A stretch of 16,481 bases of DNA from Lachnospiraceae bacterium (lineage in GTDB: Bacteria; Bacillota_A; Clostridia; Lachnospirales; Lachnospiraceae). The stretch's first letter is position 1. Every line of letters begins with the position of its first letter. Location: the NCBI GenBank assembly GCA_017540915.1, contig JAFYAD010000220.1, forward strand, positions 1-16,481, in the 5' to 3' direction. Below, piece by piece: positions 5,948-16,481 of the stretch. Below the pieces are notes generated by a model, which searched no databases, was not told the DNA's origin, and saw only the letters and a list, made by a program, of their open reading frames with translations. Position numbers and translations under genes: made by a program.

Positions 5948-5958
5948 CAGGATCCTTT

Positions 5959-5963
5959 GGAGG
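5959..5963 (+). promoter_or_regulatory. Shine-Dalgarno GGAGG fixing the HD-GYP gene start
   Basis: GGAGG lies 5 nt before ATG 5969 and 2 nt before ATG 5966. It excludes the TTG at 5957, which overlaps the site, and favours 5969. Confidence 0.75.
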
Positions 5964-5968
5964 TTATG

Positions 5969-8104
5969 ATGGCAGACACGGAAACATCAGCTTTATTCCG
6001 AAGAAAACATAATATTTCGACTTTTTTTGTATGTCTTGCAGGCATTGCTTTGAACCTGCTGCTGAGTTATATCGTGACCGCATTGGAACTTCCGCTCTAT
6101 CTGGACACGGTGGGAACTGTGGCCGTAGCCATCATGGGCGGATATCTTCCGGGCGTGGTCGTAGGTTTTGCCACAAATATCGTCAAAACCGTGCTCGATC
6201 CCGCCTCCCTCTATTACGGCTCACTTAATGTCATCATAGCGATTCTGGCCGCATTTTTTTCAAGCCACGGCTGGCATAAAAAAATCACCGGCATTATCGG
6301 CATGATCATCGCCTTTACACTCATAGGCGGCGGCTTGGGTTTTGTCATCCCCTGGTTTATGGAGGAACTGACTTTTGACAGCGAATCACTGGCAGGAATC
6401 CTGTATGAAACCGGTCATTTTAATATGGCTGTATCATGTCTTTTGTCAAGTCTTATAATGGATCTGCCCGACAAGATCATGACCATGCTCATCGTCATCA
6501 TAGCTGTTCGGCTGATCCCCGAAAAATATTACGAAATCTTTTCTTTTAAGGGATGGCTCCAGGAACCTTTCCAGACAGACAGGACAGCCCCGGCTGAAAA
6601 GATCGGTGTGCGCAGATTATCTCTGCAGACCAAGATACTGCTGGTTCTGGCTCTGTCCCTTTTTGTGATATCATCGGTCGCTATGGGTATAGGAATGTCC
6701 GTATACAACAAGACCGTGGTCAACGATCACGCCCGCATGGCTCAGGGTACCGCCAAACTTGCAGCATCGGTACTGGACGGAGACCGTATAGATGAATTTC
6801 TGGAAAGCCGCGGAACGGCTGAAGGTTATGCGCAATCCGAGGAGCTTTTGTCCCGGATACTGAACAGCTCGACGGATATTACGTATCTGTATGTTTATCA
6901 GATACGGGAAGACGGATGTCATGTGGTTTTCGACATCGACACCGAAGGATTGGAAGGCGAAGATCCCGGGACACTCATTGAATTTGATGAAGGTTTTTCC
7001 GACTATCTGGGCGACCTTCTGGCAGGCAAGCGGATAGATCCCATCATCACCAATGACACCTTTGGAAATCTTTTAACCGCATACGAACCGGTTTACGACT
7101 CCTCCGGACGATGCGTCTGTTATGTCGGAGCAGACGTGGACATGTTCAAGCTCGGCGCCATGCAGCGAAGTTTTTACGTTGAAGTCATCTCCGTATTCCT
7201 GGTGTATTTCCTGCTGATCATGGTATTTGCCATATGGCTGGCGAAATATCACATTATCATACCTGTCAACTCCATCATGAAATGTATGGACAGGATCGCA
7301 AACACATCGGACACGCAGCAGAGCATGGACGAAGATGTCAAGCTCTTCAGGAGCCTCGGAATACATACAGGCGATGAGATCGAAAACCTCTACAAAGCAG
7401 CCTGCCGTATGACCAAAAAACAAGCCGAACAGATGCGCAGCATACGCCGTCTGTCCGACTCCACCGCAAAGATGCAGGACGGACTTATCACCACCATGGC
7501 AGATATGGTCGAGAGCAGAGACTCGGATACAGGGGCTCATGTTCAGAAGACCGCCGCTTACGTAAAGATAATAGTCGAAGGTCTTCGAAAAAAAGGTTAC
7601 TACGCCAACAAGATCACCCCGAAGTTCATGTCAGATGTGGTCCGTTCCGCGCCTTTACATGATATCGGAAAGATCAACATACCTGACGGCATCCTCAATA
7701 AACCCGGCAAACTCACCGACGAGGAATTTGCCATCATGAAGACACATACCACAGCCGGTAAAAAGATCATGGAAAACGCCATCAGCACCATAGAAGGCGA
7801 CAACTACCTCAAAGAAGCCCGCAATATGGCCGCTTATCACCACGAGCGATGGGATGGGAAAGGTTACCCGGAAGGTCTTCACGGCGAGGTTATACCTTTG
7901 GCAGCGCGCATAATGTCTGTTGCGGATGTCTTTGACGCACTGGCTTCACCGCGTGTGTACAAGCCCGCATTTCCTCTCGAGAAGGCCCTGGCTATCATAG
8001 AAGAGGGCAAGGGCACTCAGTTTGATCCAAAATGTGTGGAAGTATTTATGGATTCTCTGGATGAAGTAAAAGCTGTATTGAAAAAATATAATCCGGATGT
8101 ATGA
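5969..8104 (+). CDS. Membrane HD-GYP cyclic-di-GMP phosphodiesterase with ECF-S-like and Cache-like sensor regions
   Basis: A 711-aa protein. Residues ~1-190 form a multi-helix membrane domain with 'LPLYLDTVGTVAVAIMGGY', which resembles ECF-transporter S-component-type domains. A second membrane helix (~220-245) leads to an extracytoplasmic Cache-like region (~246-403: ITYLYVYQI, VFDID, YEPVYDSSGRCVCYVGADVD). Next come a return helix (~404-426), a HAMP-like linker, and a C-terminal HD-GYP domain (~505-700). The expected catalytic residues are all visible: H524, H564-D565 followed by IGK, H593, H624-H625-E626, D629, G632-Y633-P634, and D653 in SVADVFDAL. The family hydrolyses c-di-GMP to pGpG or GMP in the cytoplasm. 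It should therefore lower c-di-GMP in response to an external or membrane-soluble ligand of unknown identity. ATG 5969 was chosen for the GGAGG 5 nt upstream; ATG 5966 is possible. The kinase gene starts 20 bp downstream, suggesting one operon. Confidence 0.92.
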   Translation: MADTETSALFRRKHNISTFFVCLAGIALNLLLSYIVTALELPLYLDTVGTVAVAIMGGYLPGVVVGFATNIVKTVLDPASLYYGSLNVIIAILAAFFSSHGWHKKITGIIGMIIAFTLIGGGLGFVIPWFMEELTFDSESLAGILYETGHFNMAVSCLLSSLIMDLPDKIMTMLIVIIAVRLIPEKYYEIFSFKGWLQEPFQTDRTAPAEKIGVRRLSLQTKILLVLALSLFVISSVAMGIGMSVYNKTVVNDHARMAQGTAKLAASVLDGDRIDEFLESRGTAEGYAQSEELLSRILNSSTDITYLYVYQIREDGCHVVFDIDTEGLEGEDPGTLIEFDEGFSDYLGDLLAGKRIDPIITNDTFGNLLTAYEPVYDSSGRCVCYVGADVDMFKLGAMQRSFYVEVISVFLVYFLLIMVFAIWLAKYHIIIPVNSIMKCMDRIANTSDTQQSMDEDVKLFRSLGIHTGDEIENLYKAACRMTKKQAEQMRSIRRLSDSTAKMQDGLITTMADMVESRDSDTGAHVQKTAAYVKIIVEGLRKKGYYANKITPKFMSDVVRSAPLHDIGKINIPDGILNKPGKLTDEEFAIMKTHTTAGKKIMENAISTIEGDNYLKEARNMAAYHHERWDGKGYPEGLHGEVIPLAARIMSVADVFDALASPRVYKPAFPLEKALAIIEEGKGTQFDPKCVEVFMDSLDEVKAVLKKYNPDV

Positions 8105-8124: not shown

Positions 8125-11100
8125 ATGCAGATCAGAATACACAAAAAAATAATATTATCCGTATTATGTTTTCTCGCAGGACTCATAAGCACGGCCGGCA
8201 TTGTCCCGGCGAACACGGTCACCAACGGCGGTGGATATGCCGTAACCGGTCAGATCAAAAACACCGGTTACACCACCCGGGTTTATGATGCGACCAACGG
8301 ACTTCCGACTTCCGATGCCAACTATGTGCTGGCATCAAGTGACGGATATATCTGGATTGGCGGATACAGTGGTATCATACGATATGACGGATCCAACTTC
8401 ACCCGTATGGATACGACCTACGGCATGACAAGCGGCCGCGGTCTGTTTGAGGACAGCAAATCCCGCATCTGGGTAGGCACCAATGACAACGGTGTCGTGG
8501 TCATCGAAGGAGACCATCAGACGCACATAACATACCGTGAAGGGCTGTTACCCTCTTCGATCCGTGAGTTTGCGGAAGATCCGGAAGGCAATGTTTTCGT
8601 GGGCACCACAGCCGGAGTTTACTGCATCAGCGATGATTTTCTGGTATCTGCACTGCAGGATGAGAGGCTTTCGGACGAGAGGATACTGAGACTGGACAGC
8701 GACAGCAACGGCGTGATATACGGACAGACCAAAAACGGTCTCATATTCAGTATCAGTGATAAGACCGTCACTTCTGTGTACAGCAGCGAAGACCTTGCAA
8801 TGGAGCATATCTCCGCAATTCTGGCCGATCCCGATCATGCAGGCATGGTATATCTGGGCACCGAAACCGGTTCCGTGTACTACGGAAAATTCGGCGACAA
8901 GGCTTCCGACATGACGAAGATCTCAGTCGATCCCCTCACGGAAATTCACTGGATGAGCTACGACTGCGGCAGACTTTGGATCTCTTCTACGGATACTGTC
9001 GGATACATAGACACAGATTACGTTTTTCACAAGATCGACATCCCCTTAAACAGCGGCATCGAGATGATGACATCCGACTATCAGGGCAATATGTGGTTTG
9101 CTTCTTCAACCCAGGGCGTGATGAAGATCGTAGCCAATAATTTCGTGGATCTGACCGCCGAGGCAGGATTACCTGAGATCGTGACGAACGCGGCATGTTT
9201 TTACAAAAATGATCTCTATATCGGGACGGACAGGGGGCTCACCATACTGGATGAAAACCGGCACCCATTGACAAATGCCCTGACCGAATACATTGGCGAT
9301 GCGCGTATACGCTGTATTGCAGCGGGAACGGACGATGATCTGTGGATAGGTGCATACACCAACAACCTTGGTCTTGTACATCTCTCGAAAGACGGCAGCA
9401 TTACATCATACAACGCCTCCGGCGGCCTGCCCGACAGCGAGATCAGGAGTATCAATATTACGGATGACGGATCGGTTCTGGCAGGTTCCAACGGCGGACT
9501 GACCATCATTAAAAACGGAAAAATCGACCGTGTCATAGATGCATCGGACGGCATCAAAAACACGGTCTCCCTCACCGTAGAGGAAGGTGATGACGGCAAG
9601 ATCTATGTCGGGACCGACGGCGGCGGAATCTACACTGTGGACGGAACAAATATCCGCCACATAGGCAGGGATGAAGGTTTGACCAGCGATGTCATAATGC
9701 GCATCAAAAAAGATGAGAAACACGGTGTTATCTGGCTGATCACATCCAATTCCATCGAATACATGAAGGATGGTGTGATACACCCTGTCACCACCTTCCC
9801 TTACAATAACAACTACGACATATATTCCGACGAAACGGACAATATGTGGATAATATCATCCTACGGCATCTATATGGTGAACAGTGAATCCATGCTGGCA
9901 GACGATGTGTCGGAATACAGGCTTTATACGACCGAAAACGGACTCACGGGCACGCCCACCACGTTATCTTACAGTGTTCTGGACGATGAAGGGTATCTTT
10001 ATATTCCCGTGAGAAACGGTATCAGCCGGGTGAACATTCATCATATTTCCATGACCGCCACCCCCATCAAGGTTGCTATAAGCTCTATATACTACGGCGA
10101 AGACAAGCTCACCCCCGATGAGGGCGGAAAATATATCATACCGCCGGGCAACGGCAGGATCCGTATCACACCGGCTGTGCTGGATTACACTACGCTAAAC
10201 CCCGAAATACGTATATACATGGAGGGAGACGAAGACGACGGCATCAAGACGATGCGCAGCAACATTCAGACTCTGGAATACACCGGACTTGCATACGGCA
10301 ATTACACCCTTCATATCAGTGTAATGGACAACTCCGGCAAACAGACTCTTGTGGATGAGAGTTTTCAGATCGTAAAAAAACCACACATAATGGAAACAGG
10401 GCTCATCAGGGTATTATTTTTGCTATTCCTGGTCCTGATCACTGTGGTGGTCGTACTGCGCGTCATGAATACCACAGTCATCCGCAGACAATATGCCCAG
10501 ATCAGGCAGGCCAAAGAGGAGGCGGAGAGGGCGAGCACCGCAAAATCCCGCTTCCTGGCCAACATGTCACACGACATACGCACACCCATCAGCACCATCA
10601 TGGGTATGAACGAGATGATCCTGAGAGAAAATGCAACAGGGGTTCCAAAGGAATACTTCATGTCCATTATCAACTACTCCCTGGACATTAAAAAAGCCTC
10701 TGAATCACTTTTGTCACTCATCAGCGATCTTCTGGATATGTCAAAGATCGAATCGGGCAACCTGTATCTGACAGAAGAGGAATATGACATCACGGAAATG
10801 CTCAGATCCATCGTACCCATGATAAGAGAGCGCAGCACCGAAAAAGGTCTGAGTTTTGACGTGGATGTGGATGAAATGCTGCCGTGCCGTCTGCTGGGGG
10901 ATCATGAAAAAGTCAAACAGATCCTTATAAACCTGCTCACAAATGCCATAAAATATACCGATATAGGTGGTTTTTCACTCCACGTTTCCATTATCGAGAT
11001 GGCGGGTGATGACATAACTCTGCGGTTTTCCGTCCGCGATACGGGCAAGGGCATCAGGATAGATGATTTGGACAAGCTCTTCAACGCATACGACCGCCTC

Positions 11101-12135
11101 GACGAACATGACAACGGCAGTATACATATGACAGGTCTCGGACTCGATATTTCCCGCCGCTTTGCGGAAAAAATGGGTGCGGAACTTACCTGCAACAGCG
11201 TATACGGCAAGGGTTCCGAGTTCATATTGACCATAAAACAGCACATTATAGATAAAACTCCCGTGGGAGCATTCGATGAAAACGGAGTCCGGAATACACT
11301 GAACGGCCCGTATATTCCACAGTTTGTGGCCCCCGATGCCGATATCCTGATAGTGGATGACAATGCCATGAATCTGAATGTCATCAAAAATCTTCTGAGC
11401 AGTACCAGAGTGTTTGTGACTACTGCCGAGAGCGGTGAGGAGTGTCTGGACAAGATCAGAGATACCAGATTTGATGTAGTACTGCTGGATCATATGATGC
11501 CCGGGATGAGAGGGACTGATACCATAGCCCGCATCAGGGAGACTAATCCGGATCTGCCTGTATATGCCCTCACGACGAACACCACGGAAGGAGAAGATTA
11601 CTACACCTCCATGGGATATAACGGTTATCTGCTGATGCCTATAGACAGCGTAGCGCTGGAGCGCACCATCATGAGACATCTGCCGGATGAGACCATGGAA
11701 AAGCCTGCAGAAAACATGCTGGCCAACTCTTCAAAGGAACTGCCTCAGGAGATGAGCTGGCTTATGAATACGGAAGGTCTGTCCGTGCAGGAGGGACTCA
11801 AAAGCTTTGTCGACGTGTCCAATTATATTTTCTCCCTCACCCTGTTTCTGGATACCATAGACAGCAACGCGGCGGCCATCCGGGAAGCCCTGGCAGGAAA
11901 CGATCTGAACCTTTATTACGCCAAGGTCCACGCCCTGAAAAAATCTGCAGATATCATCGGAGCAGCGGATCTTTCAGCCTTAGCGGGCGATCTTGAAAAT
12001 GCTGCAAAAAAAGGAGAAAAAGCAGTTGTAAATGAAAAAACGCCGGCGCTTCTGGAAGAATACGAAGCCTTTAAGGACAAACTTGCCGGAATACGCGGGG
12101 ATGCGGCTCTCAAAGGAGATAATACCAAGGGTTGA
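8125..12135 (+). CDS. Hybrid sensor histidine kinase: double beta-propeller, Y_Y_Y, HisKA, HATPase, REC, Hpt
   Basis: A 1336-aa protein. A signal peptide (residues ~1-30) precedes about 14 Reg_prop-type blades (motifs such as DGYIWIGGYSGI, SRIWVGT, NVFVGTTAGV, KIYVGTDGGGI) to ~650, which fits two 7-blade propellers. A Y_Y_Y domain follows (~655-752), then one membrane helix (~761-783) and a coiled-coil linker. The kinase core has H816 in MSHDIRTP, N-box N940 and G1-box D972 in RDTGKGI, with TGLGLDIS as G2. The receiver (~1071-1190) has D1078-D1079 and phospho-acceptor D1122, but the conserved KP lysine is Met1171. The C-terminal Hpt domain (~1215-1330) carries H1269 in VHALKKSADIIGA. Bacteroidetes HTCS proteins with this front half sense polysaccharide fragments; here the AraC-type output is replaced by an Hpt, so phosphate must pass to a response regulator elsewhere. 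The start at 8125 is supported by the signal peptide and GAAGGG 10 nt upstream. Confidence 0.93.
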   Translation: MQIRIHKKIILSVLCFLAGLISTAGIVPANTVTNGGGYAVTGQIKNTGYTTRVYDATNGLPTSDANYVLASSDGYIWIGGYSGIIRYDGSNFTRMDTTYGMTSGRGLFEDSKSRIWVGTNDNGVVVIEGDHQTHITYREGLLPSSIREFAEDPEGNVFVGTTAGVYCISDDFLVSALQDERLSDERILRLDSDSNGVIYGQTKNGLIFSISDKTVTSVYSSEDLAMEHISAILADPDHAGMVYLGTETGSVYYGKFGDKASDMTKISVDPLTEIHWMSYDCGRLWISSTDTVGYIDTDYVFHKIDIPLNSGIEMMTSDYQGNMWFASSTQGVMKIVANNFVDLTAEAGLPEIVTNAACFYKNDLYIGTDRGLTILDENRHPLTNALTEYIGDARIRCIAAGTDDDLWIGAYTNNLGLVHLSKDGSITSYNASGGLPDSEIRSINITDDGSVLAGSNGGLTIIKNGKIDRVIDASDGIKNTVSLTVEEGDDGKIYVGTDGGGIYTVDGTNIRHIGRDEGLTSDVIMRIKKDEKHGVIWLITSNSIEYMKDGVIHPVTTFPYNNNYDIYSDETDNMWIISSYGIYMVNSESMLADDVSEYRLYTTENGLTGTPTTLSYSVLDDEGYLYIPVRNGISRVNIHHISMTATPIKVAISSIYYGEDKLTPDEGGKYIIPPGNGRIRITPAVLDYTTLNPEIRIYMEGDEDDGIKTMRSNIQTLEYTGLAYGNYTLHISVMDNSGKQTLVDESFQIVKKPHIMETGLIRVLFLLFLVLITVVVVLRVMNTTVIRRQYAQIRQAKEEAERASTAKSRFLANMSHDIRTPISTIMGMNEMILRENATGVPKEYFMSIINYSLDIKKASESLLSLISDLLDMSKIESGNLYLTEEEYDITEMLRSIVPMIRERSTEKGLSFDVDVDEMLPCRLLGDHEKVKQILINLLTNAIKYTDIGGFSLHVSIIEMAGDDITLRFSVRDTGKGIRIDDLDKLFNAYDRLDEHDNGSIHMTGLGLDISRRFAEKMGAELTCNSVYGKGSEFILTIKQHIIDKTPVGAFDENGVRNTLNGPYIPQFVAPDADILIVDDNAMNLNVIKNLLSSTRVFVTTAESGEECLDKIRDTRFDVVLLDHMMPGMRGTDTIARIRETNPDLPVYALTTNTTEGEDYYTSMGYNGYLLMPIDSVALERTIMRHLPDETMEKPAENMLANSSKELPQEMSWLMNTEGLSVQEGLKSFVDVSNYIFSLTLFLDTIDSNAAAIREALAGNDLNLYYAKVHALKKSADIIGAADLSALAGDLENAAKKGEKAVVNEKTPALLEEYEAFKDKLAGIRGDAALKGDNTKG

Positions 12136-12169
12136 GTCATAATCTTTACTTGCAATACGAGAGGACAAC

Positions 12170-14536
12170 ATGTTTGAATTTATCAGATCAAACCAACTGA
12201 ATATTATGCTCGTGCTGTGCGGCGTATGTGCGACTATGGTGCTGCTGCTGCTTCTGACCCGTTTTTTATCCCGATCCAGAAAAGGGATCCTGGTTTTTAT
12301 GGAGCTCACGGCCCTTTTTCTGCTGTGGTTCGACAGACAGGCATATATATATGCAGGCGTACCGGGCAGCAAATCTTATGTAATGGTTAGAGTGAGCAAC
12401 TTCATGGTCTTCTTTCTCACGCCTGCGATCGTACTGGGACTTACATTGTACATTGCCGACTGGATGCGGACCGAAGGCAAAGAAAAACATATACCCTTCA
12501 GGCTGAGACTATGCAGTTCCATGGCCGTCTTAGGAATGCTGCTGGCTGTGGTGGCCGCATTTACCAACCTGTATTACTATTTTGATGAGACCAACAAATA
12601 TCATCGTGGAAACGGATTCATAATCTCTTACATAATCCCGGTCATATGTCCGTTTATAGTATTTTCCGTTCTGATCCAGTACAGGAAAGTCTTTACCAGG
12701 ATAATGTTCCGGTCACTGATGATATATACATTTGCACCCTTATTTTTCGGAATACTGCAGATATTTACCTACGGCATTTCCATCGTAAACATGTCCATGG
12801 TTATGGTGTCTATATTCCTGTATATAAGCACATACCTGGATATCAATAACACCGTATCCGAAGCGCATGAGATACAGATCCGGGATTTCCTCGGCAGGCA
12901 GACTCAAATGTACCGCATTTTCGATCAGACTGCGAACGCATTCGTTTCCGCAGCCGAAAAAAAGGATGAATACGCAAAAGGAACCGCCCAGAGGACTGCC
13001 GCATACGCAAAAAAGATCGCTGAATATGCCGGCAAGTCCGTAGAAGACTGCAATAAGATATACTATGCGGCTCTCCTGCACGATATAGGTCTCTTAGGCA
13101 TACCTGATGAAATATTGAAAAACGATTCCGATCTGAAAAAGAGAGAAATGGATATCATGCAGCAAAAACCTCTCATCAGTTATGAAATCCTCTCAAAGAT
13201 CACGGAATATCCTTTCCTGAGTCAGGCAGCCCGGTATTGCCACGAAAAATACAACGGAACCGGCTACCCCGATGGGCTTAAGGGAAAAGACATACCCGAG
13301 GTTGCCAGGATCATAGCTGTTGCAAATACATATGTTGCCATGACCAGCCGAAAAAGATACAGAGATGCAAAGCCCACATTTTTGGCAAGGGAAGTCTTTG
13401 TCGAAGGCGCAGGAGAGGAATTTGACCCCGAATTTGCGGACATTATGGTAAAGATCATCGATTCCGAGCGCAATGACAATGCCGGTGAGATAGCACCCCA
13501 GCTGGAATCCGAGATAACATGTACCGAATACAGGGAGAATATCTCAGCCGGAATTTCCGTGGAAAACGAGGTTCAGATTATCGGCTTTGAGTGTGAGCTG
13601 GCGGAAGACAAGGAATTCCGTGCACCTTCCATCGTACTGTTTGACTCCTATGACGGAAGGGTTCACGACAACGAAAAGGCTATCAAAGGATATCATTATG
13701 TTGAATATGCCGAGATATGGTTTGACAAAAACAGCCGTACAACAGCGGCCAGAAAGATAGATGAAAAGGAAACGGAGGAGGCGACCGGATCGCAGGAAGG
13801 CGGTCGCATCGGAAGATATGAGATCATCTCCGGACGGTTTGAAGATCACATAAGGCTTATCATGAAAGCCCCAAACTATTCTAAGGAAGTCGTGATAGCC
13901 CTCCCCGGCGGATCGAAAAAAGTTTATATCGGACTGACCGGTGAGAATTGCAGATTGTCAAACATCACTGTCGAACCCACAGGCAGGATCACGGAACAGG
14001 CAGATATACCAAGGATAGCAAAGCCTGTCAGCTTCCTGGATCACCTGGAATCGGATATCAAAAACATCCAGATTGACAGATTCCGCTCAGCTCACACAGA
14101 GGGGCTTAAGATCAATGGGCGCATAAAGCTTGCCATGAATACCATGAGTCTACCCGGAGCGGATTTCATATGGAATTGTCCTTACGTGGTCCTCTTCAGC
14201 TCCGATAACGGACTTGTGAACGGAGCCCACTACCGCGAGTATGCCCTCATTAAATTTAACGGCGAGATTGAATCCACCGAACAGTATGCCACTAACAGAT
14301 TCATTATGAAGAGAAAAGATTCTTTCCCCGGTTGGGACGAATGGAAAAAGATCAACATCAATGGCATTGACTGCGAGCTTTCCGTAGAAAAAAAGGGCGA
14401 TCAGGTGGTATTTAAGACCGAAAACCTTGGTGTCAGCATAGAAAACATCACTTCTCTGCATGACAAAAATGTTACAGTATATATGGCGCTCACCGGAGAT
14501 CAGATCGCTCTGACAGATATCCGCTTTATCAATTGA
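12170..14536 (+). CDS. 7TM sensor with eroded HD-GYP domain and tandem C-terminal domains of unknown function
   Basis: A 788-aa protein. Residues ~10-225 hold about seven membrane helices with a YYYFDETNKYHRG loop motif (135-147), and residues ~240-420 an HD-GYP domain. H304-D305 and G365-Y366-P367 are kept, but many metal or catalytic positions are changed compared with the intact HD-GYP protein in this window: T272 for His, L308 for the Lys of HDIGK, K333 for His, C357 for the first His of HHE, N362 for Asp, and N386 for the Asp of VADV. It is therefore probably not a normal c-di-GMP phosphodiesterase and may be a receptor or have altered chemistry (inference). Residues ~445-605 and ~625-788 look like two copies of a beta-rich domain with matching blocks: SIVLFDSYDG / YVVLFSSDNG, YVEYAEIWFD / YREYALIKFN, VYIGLTGENCRLSNITVE / VYMALTGDQIALTDIRF. 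I do not recognise this domain. GAGG (12161-12164) lies 5 nt before the ATG. It follows the kinase gene by 34 bp. Confidence 0.88.
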   Translation: MFEFIRSNQLNIMLVLCGVCATMVLLLLLTRFLSRSRKGILVFMELTALFLLWFDRQAYIYAGVPGSKSYVMVRVSNFMVFFLTPAIVLGLTLYIADWMRTEGKEKHIPFRLRLCSSMAVLGMLLAVVAAFTNLYYYFDETNKYHRGNGFIISYIIPVICPFIVFSVLIQYRKVFTRIMFRSLMIYTFAPLFFGILQIFTYGISIVNMSMVMVSIFLYISTYLDINNTVSEAHEIQIRDFLGRQTQMYRIFDQTANAFVSAAEKKDEYAKGTAQRTAAYAKKIAEYAGKSVEDCNKIYYAALLHDIGLLGIPDEILKNDSDLKKREMDIMQQKPLISYEILSKITEYPFLSQAARYCHEKYNGTGYPDGLKGKDIPEVARIIAVANTYVAMTSRKRYRDAKPTFLAREVFVEGAGEEFDPEFADIMVKIIDSERNDNAGEIAPQLESEITCTEYRENISAGISVENEVQIIGFECELAEDKEFRAPSIVLFDSYDGRVHDNEKAIKGYHYVEYAEIWFDKNSRTTAARKIDEKETEEATGSQEGGRIGRYEIISGRFEDHIRLIMKAPNYSKEVVIALPGGSKKVYIGLTGENCRLSNITVEPTGRITEQADIPRIAKPVSFLDHLESDIKNIQIDRFRSAHTEGLKINGRIKLAMNTMSLPGADFIWNCPYVVLFSSDNGLVNGAHYREYALIKFNGEIESTEQYATNRFIMKRKDSFPGWDEWKKININGIDCELSVEKKGDQVVFKTENLGVSIENITSLHDKNVTVYMALTGDQIALTDIRFIN

Positions 14537-15505: not shown

Positions 15506-16481
15506 ATGCTTTATAACATTGATTTCGATATCACAGCGATCATAATATCGCTGTTTATAATATTTTACATATTTGCAAAAAAAGGCTTGAAGACAATGTC
15601 AAACCGTGTGTTTTTGATATTGATCCTCTCAAATCTCGCTGCATCGATAGCTGATATATGTTCTGCGGTTATGGCGGCATTTCCGGGGACTCCCTTATGG
15701 AAGTTGGATATCGCAAACGTTTTGTACATAGGTCTTCACAATACCATGACTCCCTTTATGTTCGTTTATATTCTGTGTCTGCTGGGAGAATATACGCGGA
15801 TGAGCAATGCCAAAAGAGTGGCTTTGATGATCCCTCTTTTCGTGGATTACCTCCTGCTGATACTGAATTTCTTTTTCCGTTTCGTATACTATTTTGACGA
15901 AAACGGTGTCTATCAACACGGCCCCATGTTTTCCGTATTGTATCTTGTGGCATTCGGTTATATGTTCGCCTGTCTTTTCCTGCTGATATACAGGCGCAGG
16001 AACATCACGAATATGAAACGATATTCCCTGGTGTTCATCATAGCTGCCACAGTGGTTGCTCTTTTGATACAGATGTATCTGCCTTATATTCTGCTTGAAT
16101 TGTTTGCCCAGTCTCTCGGATTTCTGGGAATACTGCTGTCCATCGAAAATGAGGACGATATCATCAATCAGATCACAAAGGTCTACAACAGATATGCTTT
16201 TCTGGAGATGACTCCGGAGAAGATCGGCAAAGCAGACTGTGCGTTCATCGTGGTAAAGCTTCAGGATCTGTCTTATTACAATACCACCATCGGAGTTACC
16301 AGAACAAATGAATACCTTCGCCTGATCGCATCCCGGCTGTCCAAACTCGACCGGAGATTCTCATGCTTCGATCTGGGAGGCGGACGTTTTGTGTTGATCG
16401 GCAGCGGTGTATATGCCGGAGAACGGGAAAAATTCAAAGAAGAGACCTATAATATGTTCAAAAATCCCTGGGAGCACAAAG
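15506..16481 (+). CDS. 7TM sensor with eroded GGDEF domain, 3' end outside window
   Basis: The frame is open to the right edge: 325 codons are visible with no stop. GGAGG (15494-15498) lies 7 nt before ATG 15506, and the upstream stop is 3 bp away. Residues ~1-215 form about seven membrane helices with the loop motif YYFDENGVYQHG (128-139), matching the sensor of the eroded HD-GYP protein at almost the same position. From ~220 a GGDEF-type domain begins: ITKVYNRYAFLE (family LTGLYNRRAFLE), FIVVKLQDLSYYNTTIG (family DIDxFKxINDxxG), and LIASRLSK. The signature is LGGGRF (290-295) instead of GGDEF, so the active-site Asp/Glu pair is lost and cyclase activity is unlikely. Proteins with such eroded GGDEF domains often continue into an EAL domain, which would lie beyond the window (inference). 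It could act as a c-di-GMP or GTP receptor, or as a phosphodiesterase if an EAL domain follows. Confidence 0.85.
   Translation, partial: MLYNIDFDITAIIISLFIIFYIFAKKGLKTMSNRVFLILILSNLAASIADICSAVMAAFPGTPLWKLDIANVLYIGLHNTMTPFMFVYILCLLGEYTRMSNAKRVALMIPLFVDYLLLILNFFFRFVYYFDENGVYQHGPMFSVLYLVAFGYMFACLFLLIYRRRNITNMKRYSLVFIIAATVVALLIQMYLPYILLELFAQSLGFLGILLSIENEDDIINQITKVYNRYAFLEMTPEKIGKADCAFIVVKLQDLSYYNTTIGVTRTNEYLRLIASRLSKLDRRFSCFDLGGGRFVLIGSGVYAGEREKFKEETYNMFKNPWEHK

Follow-up and report, generated by a model that had tools for sequence, protein, structure and literature searches.

Two described systems lie closest to the protein considered here. PmGH is an active HD-GYP phosphodiesterase with seven core metal ligands: H189, H221, D222, H250, H276, H277, and D305. 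In the source of this list, alanine at H189, H250, or H276 essentially abolishes activity, and K225A abolishes it (PMC4159591). DvhD, from Desulfovibrio vulgaris, is a membrane-bound protein with a degenerate HD-GYP domain that lacks the metal ligands, and it binds c-di-GMP without cleaving it; it also has a periplasmic dCache domain, a PAS domain, and a periplasmic output (PMC13090378). Regulation of true c-di-GMP enzymes by degenerate HD-GYP proteins has been proposed elsewhere (PMC12570481). In the open-access literature searched, c-di-GMP signaling in the Lachnospiraceae is little described, a single paper combining this family with both HD-GYP and c-di-GMP.

The window (the whole stretch of Lachnospiraceae DNA analyzed, 16,481 nucleotides) encodes a 788-aa protein in which a membrane part and an HD-GYP-like domain precede a tandem pair of C-terminal domains (Table 1). 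The first-pass annotation had singled out the pair; the degeneracy of the HD-GYP domain, the conserved operon, and the secreted-type relatives of the repeated domain are added here. We favor, with roughly even confidence, a reading in which the protein is a membrane-bound pseudo-phosphodiesterase and c-di-GMP receptor, with the cytosolic tandem lectin-fold module as its working end, acting as output or co-input. The combination of a paired lectin-fold domain with a degenerate HD-GYP domain in front of it suggests a type of signal receptor that has not been described.

An AGAGGA sits 5' of the ATG. Six hydropathy peaks in the membrane part rise above threshold; we infer a seventh helix at about residues 40-60 and the topology given in Table 1. 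The annotation had placed the pair on the cytoplasmic side, which is likely from hydropathy, the charged loops, and a relative (L199) that combines the pair with a LacI-type sugar-binding domain and an HD-GYP domain and, by eye, has neither signal peptide nor membrane part.

Table 1. Features of the locus (window coordinates)
Feature	Coordinates	Strand	Basis
HD-GYP protein, conserved operon partner	5957..8104	+	PF13487; motifs read in translation
Hybrid kinase, Reg_prop - HisKA - HATPase - receiver - Hpt, 1336 aa, conserved operon partner	8125..12135	+	Pfam
7TM - degenerate HD-GYP - tandem lectin-fold protein, 788 aa	12170..14536	+	ORF
Membrane part, residues 12-220, read as 7 TM, N-out/C-in	12203..12829	+	Hydropathy
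HD-GYP-like domain, residues 251-435, catalytic center degenerate	12920..13474	+	PF13487, E 7.6e-32; ligand map to PmGH 4MCW
Lectin-fold copy 1, residues 445-607	13502..13990	+	
Lectin-fold copy 2, residues 625-788	14042..14533	+	

Catalytic residues and nucleotide pocket of the HD-GYP-like domain

The HD-GYP domain and its GYP pocket are common to PmGH and the 788-aa protein (E 3.4e-23), and HD (residues 304-305) and GYP (residues 365-367) are both present; the match stops ahead of the tandem pair. However, only three of the seven core ligands are left: H221, D222, and H277 in PmGH numbering. The other four are replaced (H189 by T272, H250 by K333, H276 by C357, and D305 by N386), and two further positions are changed (K225 to L308, D308 to V389). 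The set of seven ligands plus K225, taken to mark an active HD-GYP phosphodiesterase, is thus incomplete, and catalysis by this domain is very probably gone.

The same positions were tallied in 131 rows: the 788-aa protein plus 130 different tandem ORFs taken from the retrieved loci. All seven ligands are kept in 29 rows, six in two rows, and five or fewer in 100. This last class includes a fragment (L135); leaving it out gives 99 degenerate rows, the 788-aa protein among them. The ratio of intact to degenerate rows is biased, since the 80 loci most similar to the query supply 80 of the 99; rows from genome searches number 18 degenerate and 29 intact. Across the 99 degenerate rows, the H250 position holds K in 75, R in five, and H in none; the H276 position holds S or C in 90 and H in three; K survives at the K225 position in seven, and H at the H189 position in 27; and V occupies the V389 position in 78. 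The remaining ligands are mostly kept (H221 in 95, D222 in 82, H277 in 86, D305 in 90), which leaves room for a partial metal site. The GYP motif persists (G in 98, Y in 91, P in 98), and positions R314 and K317 are basic (K or R) in 79 and 83 rows, respectively.

These counts bear on the idea that the domain is still a phosphodiesterase, with an altered metal site, and that the pair is only a structural or dimerizing add-on. We consider this improbable. The domain is well conserved and keeps H221, D222, and H277, but H189, H250, H276, and K225, each required in PmGH (PMC4159591), are lost in the 788-aa protein, and H250 and H276 are lost in 99 and 96 of the 99 degenerate rows, respectively.

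A quick tree of 66 of the 131 rows, rooted at the midpoint, gathers 32 degenerate rows into a single starred clade with intact rows around it; the tree contains four label changes in all, one of them due to the fragment L135. The ligand losses thus appear to comprise one nested clade and about two other events, and to represent loss rather than gain. In five homologues (P0006, P0011, P0014, P0018, and P0024), 50-51 of the 61 HD positions (307-367) are missing, and the membrane part and pair stay; in P0081, the sixth listed homologue with a gap, 27 HD positions are missing. Another explanation would be gene decay, with drift in the HD-GYP part and the pair left over as a relic. About three losses of the catalytic center on the tree, together with relatives whose HD core is mostly excised, fit such decay, yet the reading frame is open in relatives of 50-60% identity, many columns of the pair are invariant, the operon is conserved, and the lost positions share new residues (K333, S or C357, and V389, in the 75, 90, and 78 rows noted above). 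Decay is therefore very improbable.

Among close relatives, mean pair identity is 0.67 in the HD part versus 0.53 and 0.59 in the tandem pair. Since the HD part is conserved at least as well, the pair cannot plainly be called the sole working end.

What the HD part retains is best seen against DvhD. The domain aligns with 9rbz (E 3e-16) and 9rc0 (E 1e-15), both of which appear to be DvhD, judging from the SQ and MN motifs and the residue numbers in the alignment. HD itself is lost in DvhD, where it reads SQ, whereas the 788-aa protein keeps HD and loses other ligands. The two share the GYP tyrosine and several c-di-GMP contacts: Y621, M646, R650, and Y652 of DvhD correspond to Y366, M391, K395, and Y397, and these positions hold Y in 91, M in 90, K or R in 79, and Y or F in 87 of the 99 degenerate rows. 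Y268 and L322 match as well; K395 is similar rather than identical. Two of the eight canonical contacts, E668 and K582, have no equivalent (A414 and M327 in the 788-aa protein); the position of L577, which is L322 here, holds P in 66 of the 99 rows; and R569, of the DvhD bridging site, is not kept. Intact relatives also keep the GYP contacts, so their retention alone is no proof of a receptor. Binding of c-di-GMP by the 788-aa protein is nonetheless likely enough to be an even call. The tandem lectin-fold pair sets it apart from DvhD, since none is seen in the available extracts of the DvhD description (PMC13090378).

Other arrangements were encountered in the same rows. L060, with five of seven ligands, has no 7TM match, and L053 keeps none of the seven, its HD-GYP core being mostly missing. 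In two Ruminococcus genomes, degenerate and intact tandem HD-GYP genes adjoin (L214, 2292-7101, minus strand; L216, 3017-7857, minus strand).

The paired C-terminal domain

The first-pass annotation had proposed, from blocks recurring in the same order, that the C-terminal region holds two copies of one unrecognized domain. Sequence and profile comparison agree on this. The block pairs lie where they had been placed: SIVLFDSYDG (487-496) and YVVLFSSDNG (672-681); YVEYAEIWF (510-518) and YREYALIKF (688-696); and, closing each copy, VYIGLTGENCRLSNI (585-599) and VYMALTGDQIALTDI (770-784). When just the two halves, as single sequences, were compared by BLASTP without composition correction, identity was 24.7% over 166 columns (E 4e-7). 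Profile-profile alignment of the halves, each profile built from an alignment of 65 sequences, scored 68.6 over 148 columns (probability 97%, E 9e-11); the best of 100 column-shuffled controls reached 30.6, and a reversed profile 18.5. An HMM made from one half also matches the other half in many relatives, with E values down to 6e-10 and weak in many. Judged by these comparisons of sequence, the duplication is real.

An AlphaFold model of residues 425-788 contains two β-sandwiches, with a mean pLDDT of 88.2; its pTM is only 0.56, so the mutual packing of the two domains cannot be taken from it. Both halves are predicted to adopt a concanavalin-A/galectin-type fold, the β-sandwich jelly roll of the ConA-like lectin/glucanase superfamily, and thus do not differ in fold as the annotation had allowed they might. 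Its other reservation, that the whole region might prove to be a single known domain, holds at the level of fold only, and for each half separately; there is no family match. At that level the pair resembles galectins, GH32 C-terminal domains, and lectins. It differs from other ConA-like domains (galectins, GH32 C-terminal domains, CBM66, LamG) in being probably cytosolic and joined to HD-GYP.

The domain is indeed unrecognized. Searches of the C-terminal region against Pfam, NCBIfam, and PDB sequences returned no family or chain match (Pfam and PDB at E<=1), which includes the galectin family (Gal-bind_lectin) in Pfam; profile A3 found no PDB chain at E<=1; and in those family members that were scanned, neither Pfam nor NCBIfam has an entry matching the domain. 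The shared lectin fold alone says nothing about function, and carbohydrate binding by the pair is putative.

Relatives of the domain also occur in secreted-type proteins, which have signal peptides and in some cases are anchored or LamG-linked. In three such proteins, LamG-like regions accompany between one and four copies of the domain: L195 (786-3707, plus strand), L194 (2070-4151, minus strand), and L201 (2325-3884, minus strand). The L195 repeats are matched by 6384 of 8000 scored candidates.

These relatives bring in the main rival to the receptor reading, namely that the pair is an input: a cytosolic sensor of a glycan, oligosaccharide, or sugar nucleotide that sets the HD-GYP enzyme where this is intact, and a relay state where it is degenerate. 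Bacteroides Reg_prop hybrid kinases sense polysaccharide breakdown products, and the fold of the pair, the signal peptides and LamG links of its relatives, and the LacI-type sugar-binding sensor of L199 are all consistent with such a role. However, the secreted domains commonly carry an R[SA]D..GW motif that copy 2, as aligned, lacks, and copy 1 has IWFDKNS at the matching block; sensors usually stand N-terminal; and the pair persists where the HD core is degenerate or excised. The sensor role is accordingly possible but rather unlikely.

Operon, architectures, and a proposed mechanism

The 788-aa protein belongs to a conserved gene set: an active-type HD-GYP gene, a hybrid kinase gene, often a gene for an approximately 252-aa receiver protein, and the tandem gene. 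In the window the HD-GYP partner has intact-looking motifs (DTGAH, HDIGK, KTH, HHERWDGKGYP, and VADVFDA), and the receiver gene is missing between kinase and tandem gene (12136-12169). Twelve genomes were chosen among the loci (ten isolates and two MAGs, the pair being present in all by choice). In all 12, the HD-GYP and hybrid kinase genes lie upstream on the same strand as the tandem gene; four of them (L209 and L214-L216) have a short kinase, whose match extends over about 40% of the 1336-aa protein. An ORF of 251-254 aa separates kinase and tandem gene in seven of the 12 stretches, and the single one scanned, that of L205, holds a receiver domain. Half of these genomes (six of 12) carry two or three copies of the tandem gene.

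Among 15 further stretches, the set recurs both with 7TM copies that keep six or seven ligands (L217-L220, L218 being cut at the HD-GYP gene) and with degenerate copies (L222, L223, L229, and L231; L230 is cut). For L221 and L224 the full set was not found, and the HD-GYP neighbor alone matches. Four of four intact copies with another N-terminal part (L225-L228) have no kinase or HD-GYP partner alongside, so the pair can work without either.

More broadly, 70 of the 80 closest loci have more than 2.5 kb upstream. A kinase match occurs in 62 of these 70, at a loose threshold of 60 residues, and a receiver protein match in 40; under a stricter rule (over half the kinase length at >35% identity), 54 of all 80 loci match. 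The HD-GYP gene is present in eight of eight loci in which the kinase match begins more than 1.5 kb into the locus, and at least five of the eight loci with no kinase match (L011, L015, L030, L034, and L039) have it upstream.

A protein search found 693 homologues of the 788-aa protein at E<=0.001, of which the best 120 each cover at least 95% of the query region. A genome scan gave 400 relatives, of which the 80 best were kept. Most titles name Lachnospiraceae; Butyrivibrio, Ruminococcus, and a few other names also appear, and ruminant-gut MAGs are numerous. In a family-level draw of 299 genomes around one Butyrivibrio genome, matches occur in 35 (the center included), the best match being a full-length pair in 30 and weak or partial in five. 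A draw at phylum level yielded three of 398, again with the center included.

The pair recurs with HD-GYP behind several N-terminal types. An HD-GYP profile matches all 130 tandem ORFs, and the 7TM profile of the 788-aa protein matches 109; of the 21 without this match, several are truncated where a contig stops. The alternatives are a MASE11-like part (L095; E 2.5e-4, below Pfam's cutoff), a different membrane part (L098), a Reg_prop-like propeller, named by eye, that runs on outside the retrieved sequence (L129, with an open frame of 1390 aa), and, in a separate hit, the LacI-type domain of L199. The pair stands after HD-GYP in all four. With at least four other N-terminal types, the pair is not tied to the 7TM part; its role as an output set by the 7TM sensor, suggested in the annotation, is putative. 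In L129 (2781-5501, minus strand), the propeller is joined directly to an intact HD-GYP domain and the pair, as if the operon's sensor and end piece were fused.

The pair is thus the constant partner of HD-GYP and survives loss of the HD core, and it is on these grounds that we take it as the working end, on the inner side of the membrane. This suggests a model for the receptor reading. The HD-GYP domain would no longer build the usual metal center, yet would keep much of the nucleotide pocket. Binding of c-di-GMP, balanced against the operon's active-type HD-GYP protein and the inputs sensed by the 7TM part and the hybrid kinase, would be relayed to the C-terminal ConA/galectin-type pair on the cytoplasmic side. 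The pair would then bind a partner, the first candidates being the approximately 252-aa receiver where present, the kinase receiver or Hpt domain, and the active-type HD-GYP protein; alternatively, it may bind a sugar-type ligand.

A broader proposal, which we regard as unlikely as a whole, is that a cytosolic tandem lectin-fold family, kin to secreted glycan-binding-type domains, couples sugar or precursor status to c-di-GMP through HD-GYP, and that in the clade of the 788-aa protein an enzyme turned into a c-di-GMP receptor within a phosphorelay operon. If true, this would constitute an undescribed class of c-di-GMP receptor and the first lectin-fold effector of c-di-GMP. The 788-aa protein and its operon form a testable unit, in which an active-type HD-GYP protein and a phosphorelay kinase accompany a predicted receptor that lacks catalysis and bears the unnamed pair; because intact and degenerate relatives coexist, the step from enzyme to receptor can be tested directly.

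Farther along the window, positions 15506-16480 (plus strand) encode a membrane protein that has a GGDEF-like domain and is truncated where the window stops. Its motif is GGGRF, and the cyclase site appears degenerate in the translation, read by eye.
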